A stretch of 64,000 nucleotides of DNA, taken from Cunninghamella blakesleeana. Taxonomy: Eukaryota > Mucoromycota > Mucoromycetes > Mucorales > Cunninghamellaceae. The stretch spans positions 4,631,501 to 4,695,500 of the forward strand of contig JAFCIZ010000001.1 of the NCBI GenBank assembly GCA_017871115.1, in the 5' to 3' direction. Both the position numbers and the translations under genes were made by a program. Under the pieces are notes generated by a model. It was not told the origin of the DNA. It did no database searches and was given only the letters and a program-made list of their open reading frames with translations. Below, in pieces: positions 31,871 through 32,893 of this stretch. Each line of letters begins with the position of its first letter. Position 1 is the first letter of the stretch.

Positions 31871-32893
31871 TTAAAGGATTAAACATTTTGTTTTTTTATC
31901 TTTCTTTGGTTTAGATTTTGTTCCAGCACGTAAACCTTCACGTTGAGCTCGAATTGTTTTAACTACTTGATAAAAGGATCTTTCGACATTGACACAAGTT
32001 TTTGCAGATGTTTCAATAAAATCACAACCAAGTCTTTTAGCCATAGCATATCCTTCTTCTCTGTGGACATCTCTTTCAGTAACTTTGTCACATTTATTTC
32101 CAACTAACATTAAAGGTACATTGTCGACATCTTTTACTCGGAATATTTGATCTCTAAATCTTTCAATTCTTTCAAATGTTGATCGAGATGTAATAGAATA
32201 AACTAATAAAAATCCTTCACCGTCTCTTATCCATTGATCACGAAGTGCAGTATATTCCTCTATTTATTATCAAAATATATGAAGAAAAAAAATGTAAATA
32301 TAATATATATATATATATTTATTATTTTATTTATCTATTACCTTGACCAGCAGTATCTAACACTTCTAAAACACAAGGTTGATCATCAATAACAACTTGT
32401 TTTCTATAAGAATCTTCAATAGTAGGATCATATGTCTATATATATATATATAATAAAAGAAAAAAAGTAAAGAAAAAAAAAATTATCAATAATTTGAATA
32501 TAAAAAAAAACAAGCTTTTTTTTTTTAAAAAAAAAAAAAAATATTTATAATTACCTCTATTGGAAATAAATATTAGTTGTTGGGTAATAAAAAATAGATA
32601 GTAGAATAATAATATAAAAAAAGATGAATATTCAATTAGTTACTTTAACAATAAACCACTGTTCTATTTATATTTATATTTACCAACAAAGTGATTTAAA
32701 CAAAGTTGGATAGTTAAAGCAGTCTATTCATTGGTAATATAAAAGAGAAGAGAAAAAGTTTAATACATCATATTTATTAACAAAACTGCTCTCATGTTGC
32801 TTATTAATATATTATAAATTATATTATGTATTTTATTGTTTTTACTTTTCCAACACCACCATCACCTAAAACGACTAACTTATAGAGCATCAT
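31871..32893 (-). CDS. RAS: Ras-family small GTPase (RasB/Mucor-Ras-like)
   Basis: Five exons: 32846-32893, 32684-32723, 32555-32556 (2 nt), 32342-32435 and 31871-32259. The total of 573 nt encodes 190 aa. Motifs: P-loop LGDGGVGKTALTIQL, effector region HFVETYDPTIEDSYRKQVV, switch II LDTAGQEEYTALRDQW, NKCD and ETSAKT for guanine binding. The C-terminal tail is Lys-rich (KSKPKKDKKTK) and ends CLIL; Leu at the last position favours geranylgeranylation. It should be a membrane-bound switch for growth or morphogenesis. The frame is open only if the 2-nt exon is included. The alternative start at the second Met (32890) is equally possible. Confidence 0.95.
32555..32556 (-). other. 2-nt microexon (RAS exon 3)
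   Basis: Minus strand reads ATTTCCAATAG|AG|GTAATTATA. Exon 2 ends GTT-G and the following exon starts ACA-TAT-GAT. Only insertion of AG restores GAG (Glu) and the conserved V-E-T-Y-D-P-T-I-E-D. A CTAAT branch-point-like sequence lies about 15 nt before the acceptor. Confidence 0.8.

Follow-up and report, generated by a model that had tools for sequence, protein, structure and literature searches.

The minus strand of the window (the whole 64,000-nucleotide stretch of Cunninghamella blakesleeana DNA that was analyzed) carries, from position 32893 to 31871, a gene for a Ras2-type GTPase of 190 residues that can be read as five exons, including one of 2 nt. Small GTPases of the Ras type are recognized by the G-box motifs GxxxxGKT, DTAGQ, NKxD, and ETSAK together with a C-terminal CaaX box, and the translation of this gene carries GDGGVGKT, DTAGQ, NKCD, ETSAK, and CLIL. 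Human KRas was the top PDB match of the protein (phmmer, 222 bits). Among the best 120 of 7480 matches in a protein search, the inferred protein was closest to P0001 of Chlamydoabsidia padenii, with 98% identity, followed by a model from Absidia cylindrospora that differs by two residues and by 24 extra residues. In the latter model (P0002) the microexon site is correct, and the 24 residues lie where the last intron sits, resembling intron retention. A search of the 31.9-Mb genome revealed no further gene of the Ras2 type; the next match by E value shared 55% identity over 92 residues.

All features of the gene lie on the minus strand. Exon 1 (32846 to 32893) encodes codons 1 to 16 and ends in GGA AAA/GTAAAA; it is followed by intron 1 (32724 to 32845), of 122 nt and in phase 0 between K16 and T17. 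The 40-nt exon 2 (32684 to 32723) ends in GTT G/GTAAAT, in phase 1 within codon 30. Intron 2a (32557 to 32683; 127 nt; GTAAAT...TTTCCAATAG) and intron 2b (32436 to 32554; 119 nt; GTAATT...ATATAG; phase 0 between E30 and T31) flank the dinucleotide AG (32555 to 32556), which finishes codon 30 as G/AG (Glu). Exon 4 (32342 to 32435) opens with ACA TAT GAT, encoding T31-Y32-D33 of switch I, and is separated by the 82-nt intron 3 (32260 to 32341) from exon 5 (31871 to 32259), which runs up to the stop codon and has the CaaX box CLIL at its end.

Frame and splice sites around codon 30

The initial annotation held that two bases are needed between GTT-G and ACATATG, and this was borne out by translation. 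Exon 2 joined straight to ACATATG reads ...HFVDI and then a stop at codon 32, whereas inclusion of AG gives ...HFVETYDPTIED... within a coding sequence of exactly 573 nt that has a single, terminal stop. The string HFVETYDPTIED was found again in the fetched proteins of relatives. The arrangement that had been reported, CCAATAG/AG/GTAATT, can be read directly in the sequence (TTTCCAATAG/AG/GTAATT) with AG at 32556-32555, so that the two bases have the canonical AG before and GT after that define an internal exon at a microexon length of 1 to 3 nt. The cDNA junction predicted with the microexon is GTTGAGACATAT, and the junctions contrary to it are GTTGACATAT and CACTTTACATAT.

All GT/GC...AG combinations in the 248-nt gap between exons 2 and 4 were enumerated, and three exons with a length of 2 modulo 3 were obtained; the other two, which would be longer microexons, both introduce stops. 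When exon chains with introns of at least 50 nt and up to three pieces were enumerated, so that a 1 + 1 nt supply was covered, exactly one canonical chain was found to supply AA or AG, namely AG at 32556-32555, and no pair of 1-nt exons was obtained. In 20,000 dinucleotide shuffles of the gap, an AG-AR-GT of any strength flanked on both sides by 50 nt or more arose in 2.2%, and one equally strong at both sites in 1 of the 20,000. Of the 144 real introns in the GTPase set described below that reach 102 nt or more, 1 contained AG-AR-GT. Unguided protein-to-DNA spliced alignment picked the microexon with two reference proteins and, when repeated with four, at intron costs of 8, 14, and 20; at a cost of 30, the informative setting, it switched to a deletion of V29-E30, an outcome also present in 13 public models.

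The splice sites were compared with 201 introns from 40 loci for small GTPases in this genome, obtained by a purpose-written protein-to-DNA spliced alignment; the set depends on alignment to reference proteins, nine of which were human sequences. The 5th, 50th, and 95th percentiles of intron length were 81, 117, and 225 nt, with seven of the 201 introns reaching at least 248 nt, and introns 2a and 2b are thus of ordinary length, as had been proposed. The acceptor before the microexon ranked at the 67th percentile and the donor after it at the 74th, while the donor of intron 2a and the acceptor of intron 2b ranked at the 49th and 61st. A CTAAT motif had been put forward as a branch-like site just before AG; it is present, but its 16-nt distance is shorter than usual in this genome, where CTRAY within the last 60 nt occurred in 45 of the 201 introns at a median distance of 38 nt (5th percentile, 25 nt), and because of this unusual nearness it lends the microexon little weight.

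Two related arrangements were considered and rejected. A zero-length recursive splice site, ATAGAG/GTAATT, is present, but its use omits two bases and shifts the frame, and its acceptor ranked at the 5.5th percentile. A stwintron does not describe the locus, as introns 2a and 2b are each complete and two coding nucleotides are kept between them.

A 2-nt exon that builds codon 30, located at the margin of switch I, is well supported because of the reading frame, the quality of the splice sites, the uniqueness of the solution, and the behavior of gene models in other fungi. It is very probable that this is a Ras2 gene whose Glu30 codon is split G/AG and that AG is a constitutive exon between two ordinary short GT-AG introns.

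Ras2 gene models of other fungi

Public protein models were taken from the first search (best 120 of 7480 matches) and from a second search, seeded with a broken model (best 120 of 3460), giving 147 proteins together. Four animal, plant, or protist records (P0022, P0076, P0086, and P0120) were dropped before counting, which left 105 models with species names, 89 of them from the first search, and 38 without. Because of the seed used in the second search, its 16 named models were kept apart. Breaks were scored by patterns of our own, with an intact class that includes doubtful entries such as the fused model P0014.

The V29-E30/T31 junction was broken in 38 of the 89 named models from the best 120 of 7480 matches and in 42 of the 105 when the best 120 of 3460 were included. 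At the control junctions of the same 105 listed models, breaks were found in 7 (exon 1/2) and 2 (exon 4/5), one of the latter merely a substitution. The 51 of 89 first-search models that are intact could be explained if the species concerned have just one ordinary intron there. Among the matches listed, none of the 38 nameless records was broken at V29-E30/T31. These records sit on contigs of less than 3 kb in 33 of 38 cases and are probably largely transcripts; P0132 and P0142 were rejected as such, because each seems to retain an intron at another place.

With each named model assigned to its phylum, breaks among the matches listed from both searches were found in Mucoromycota (20/37), Glomeromycota (7/11), Mortierellomycota (5/7), Chytridiomycota (3/17), Zoopagomycota (2/3), Calcarisporiellomycota (2/2), Kickxellomycota (1/7), Basidiomycota (1/6), and Neocallimastigomycota (1/1). 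No breaks were found in the listed models of Basidiobolomycota (0/2), Entomophthoromycota (0/1), or Ascomycota (0/11, all from the second search). As a rough control, the Rho1 P-loop was unbroken in all 30 homologues fetched of 120 listed, these having been picked by eye from named fungal rows under a score ranking that could conceal broken ones. Pattern scans of genome contigs and viral contigs for a foreign Ras2 locus gave 87 and 23 matches, respectively, none of which was confirmed as one.

The residues at the breaks were then read for their fit to particular donors. Among the matches listed, 13 models drop V-E (NHF/TYDP), as the weak in-frame donor GTTGGT would give: P0011, P0016, P0046, P0047, P0054, P0055, P0069, P0081, P0082, P0104, P0118, P0122, and P0126. 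Six models continue past V-G, five of them with residues (KC, KS, RC, MC, and ES) that fit a GTRNGT donor and one (SP) with residues that do not; the expected rate is 13.8% (binomial P of 3e-4). A further six continue past V-E, and in three of these, P0012 (Mucor velutinosus), P0013 (Lichtheimia ornata), and P0125 (Mucor hiemalis), the next residues are Val-Asn, the product of a GTNAAY donor two bases into the codon (3/6, P of 0.005; 3/7 and about 0.008, calculated by hand, if P0108, which was left out, is counted with its V-E, Asp, and loss of most of switch I). Val-Asn is absent from the other three, P0017, P0071, and P0112. In Rhizomucor P0112 the model reads ...TFPIE/TYDP, and FPIE is the in-frame reading of TTTCCAATAGAG in the window. 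P0100 continues V-Asp, matching neither donor, and the broken models that fit no simple donor include P0048, P0017, P0071, and P0100.

Paired models also disagree at this site. P0037 and P0055 of Rhizophagus irregularis are identical at 205 of 205 aligned residues, V-E being the sole difference, and a similar disagreement over V-E exists between P0034 and P0117 of Rhizophlyctis (176/179) and between P0105 and P0126 of Rhizopus microsporus (178/186).

A group of models (P0015, P0020, P0023, P0036, P0102, P0107, and P0117) passes from ALTIQ directly to TYDP, with 24 nt lost, that is, 22 + 2. An extra intron after Gln22 in addition to a 2-nt exon would fit these jumps.

The gene models indicate the same 2-nt arrangement in other early-diverging fungi, and from them we infer an old and frequently misannotated exon in fungal Ras2. 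Its conservation within Mucoromycota is likely, and conservation in the wider set of phyla is favored on balance; both assessments rest on annotation mistakes in the models listed, and such mistakes have other causes too.

Alternative readings of the junction

The initial annotation stated that no alternative donor in exon 2 rescues the frame, which proved incorrect. The donor GTTGGT at 32687 (32682 to 32687, minus strand) does so through a single 252-nt intron, joining CACTTT to ACATATG and yielding a protein without Val29-Glu30 (...NHF-TYDPTIED) from a 567-nt coding sequence with one stop. This intron is canonical GT-AG, it keeps the effector region YDPTIEDSY in frame just as the microexon does, and it would produce the loss seen in the 13 public models listed above. 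Its donor, however, ranked at the 0.5th percentile of the 201-intron set, and its use passes over the median-strength GTAAAT four bases downstream. Furthermore, V29-E30, at the edge of switch I, is retained in all 38 nameless records and in 51 of the 89 named first-search models (best 120 of 7480 matches), as well as in the second, otherwise identical model from R. irregularis. Use of this donor in place of the microexon is therefore regarded as very unlikely.

YDPTIEDSY also stays in frame if the gap is removed as one noncanonical GT...AT intron (...TATAT/AGACATATG, with AG exonic), and the same place could have lost two bases, in the assembly or in the gene. The sequence AGACATATG likewise yields an in-frame G/AG ACA (Glu-Thr), its AG adjoins a (TA)8 repeat, and this AG before ACATATG and the microexon AG are indistinguishable by cDNA sequence alone. 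A GT-AT intron nevertheless requires a nonconsensus acceptor, and the loss of bases an error in a 12-contig assembly that would have to be masked by a microexon with a strength-matched chance of 1 in 20,000. In other genera, P0012, P0013, and P0125 suggest a donor directly after the Glu codon. Either form of this explanation is considered extremely unlikely. A pseudogene in which the two absent bases are a genuine frameshift has the frame break and nothing beyond it in its favor, and is scarcely credible for a gene that is otherwise intact, with its GTPase motifs and CaaX box, whose protein is 98% identical to that of a relative, and for which no second Ras2-type copy was found in the genome.

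Splicing, origin, and known tiny exons

For the 2-nt exon, it is most natural to suppose that introns 2a and 2b are removed sequentially, through intron definition or re-splicing. The two introns would be removed successively because two nucleotides cannot carry two splicing complexes simultaneously, and intron definition could suffice for two introns that are short and individually complete. By calculation, removal of 2a first would leave GAG/GTAATT, with the donor unchanged, and removal of 2b first would leave CCAATAG/AGACATATG, with an ordinary acceptor; either order leaves usable sites. Skipping of the microexon would be expected to give a dead transcript, with a stop at codon 32, and the earlier suggestion that skipping could act as an off switch for Ras is consistent with the frame, from which it would follow.

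The place and phase of intron 2b are common to six Rho paralogues in the genome (L040, L050, L053, L062, L066, and L067), in which the match is phase 0 at E32/V33 of RhoA numbering, as aligned by eye. The arrangement is not shared with the Ras1-like L039 and L045, the Rap-like L034, the Rheb L038, or the Ras-like L047, which have no intron at that position. Because six Rho paralogues share its position and phase, intron 2b is likely to be the older of the two, with 2a gained two bases upstream of it, although the site of intron 2b may have been gained in parallel in Ras2 and Rho. A broader proposal is that the 2-nt exon is ancestral to most early-diverging fungi, possibly beyond, and has been kept because sequential splicing ties Ras2 output to splicing quality, skipping giving the codon-32 stop and the upstream donor a protein lacking V29-E30; this is speculative and on present evidence doubtful.

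Tiny exons appear to be plentiful in this genome. In the 40 GTPase loci, nine of 161 internal exons were 11 nt or less; one of these nine, of 1 nt and in L066, is a doubtful call accompanied by the deletion of a residue. In L066 (G000:C6:3489000-3493300, minus strand), exon 1 of a Rho1-type P-loop ends in GGTGCTT and is followed by a 6-nt exon, GTGGAA; the sole canonical completion found for the Lys codon before ACTTGT consists of two successive 1-nt exons, A and then G. The introns around these tiny exons measure 163, 96, 104, and 115 nt, and G is preceded by a weak acceptor (7.5th percentile). In shuffles of L066 the full chain was recovered in 0 of 1000, the step with two 1-nt exons in 0.2% of 3000, and any supply of AA or AG in 4.9%. 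The paralogues L060, L063, L064, and L068, for which Rab5A was the best of the references used and which by eye we take to be Rab6-like, have in common an 8-nt exon, CTGGTCAR, at Ala-Gly-Gln of switch II. A 6-nt exon (GGAAAA, Gly-Lys of the Rho P-loop) and 11-nt exons were found among L067, L046, L049, and L057, the 11-nt exons lying in two Rab P-loops and one Rab switch II.

If confirmed, the Ras2 exon would rank among the smallest known, would lie in a protein segment that few others in biology match for depth of study, and would apparently be maintained across fungal phyla. Many public fungal Ras2 models would be wrong at the effector region, which affects phylogeny, structure, and drug work, and the locus would offer a natural set of constructs for how the spliceosome handles an exon below codon length.

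Exons of this kind have precedents. A 1-nt exon of CYP621A in Fusarium was described as the first in a fungal gene, in an article which also notes exons of 2 to 5 bp in Arabidopsis, Drosophila, and humans (PMC12940212). Like the Ras2 exon, it was too small to annotate and was revealed by mismatched exon phases within a conserved motif (PMC12940212). The CYP621A exon is supported by RNA reads in one P450 subfamily of one genus (PMC12940212), whereas the Ras2 exon, of 2 nt, apparently occurs in several phyla and is proposed here from sequence and gene models. Conserved 1-nt microexons in plant APC11 and VPS55 are absent from reference annotations; they resemble the Ras2 case in their deep conservation and in that their omission alters the predicted protein, and differ from it in being 1 nt long, in other genes, in land plants, and proven by RT-PCR (PMC8831610, PMC4674806). 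For the Arabidopsis APC11 exon, a view combining intron definition and re-splicing has been proposed (PMC4674806). The 20-nt switch microexon of Xlr2 in Trichoderma is likewise a microexon of a filamentous fungus with a product that is altered on skipping, but it is ten times longer than that of Ras2 and is regulated by glucose (PMC11121469).

Stwintrons are nested fungal introns in which a splice element of the external intron is split by the internal intron (PMC12403724). As is proposed for introns 2a and 2b, neighboring introns are excised in consecutive reactions (PMC12403724); in Ras2, by contrast, both introns are whole and two coding bases are retained. In PMC3990503, microexons are mentioned only as an aligner setting, and no microexon in a fungal Ras gene was found among the articles listed by searches of the open-license literature on fungal ras structure, tiny exons, and nested introns. 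The kind of exon is therefore already known from other systems, while its gene, its place in switch I, and its apparent age seem to be new.
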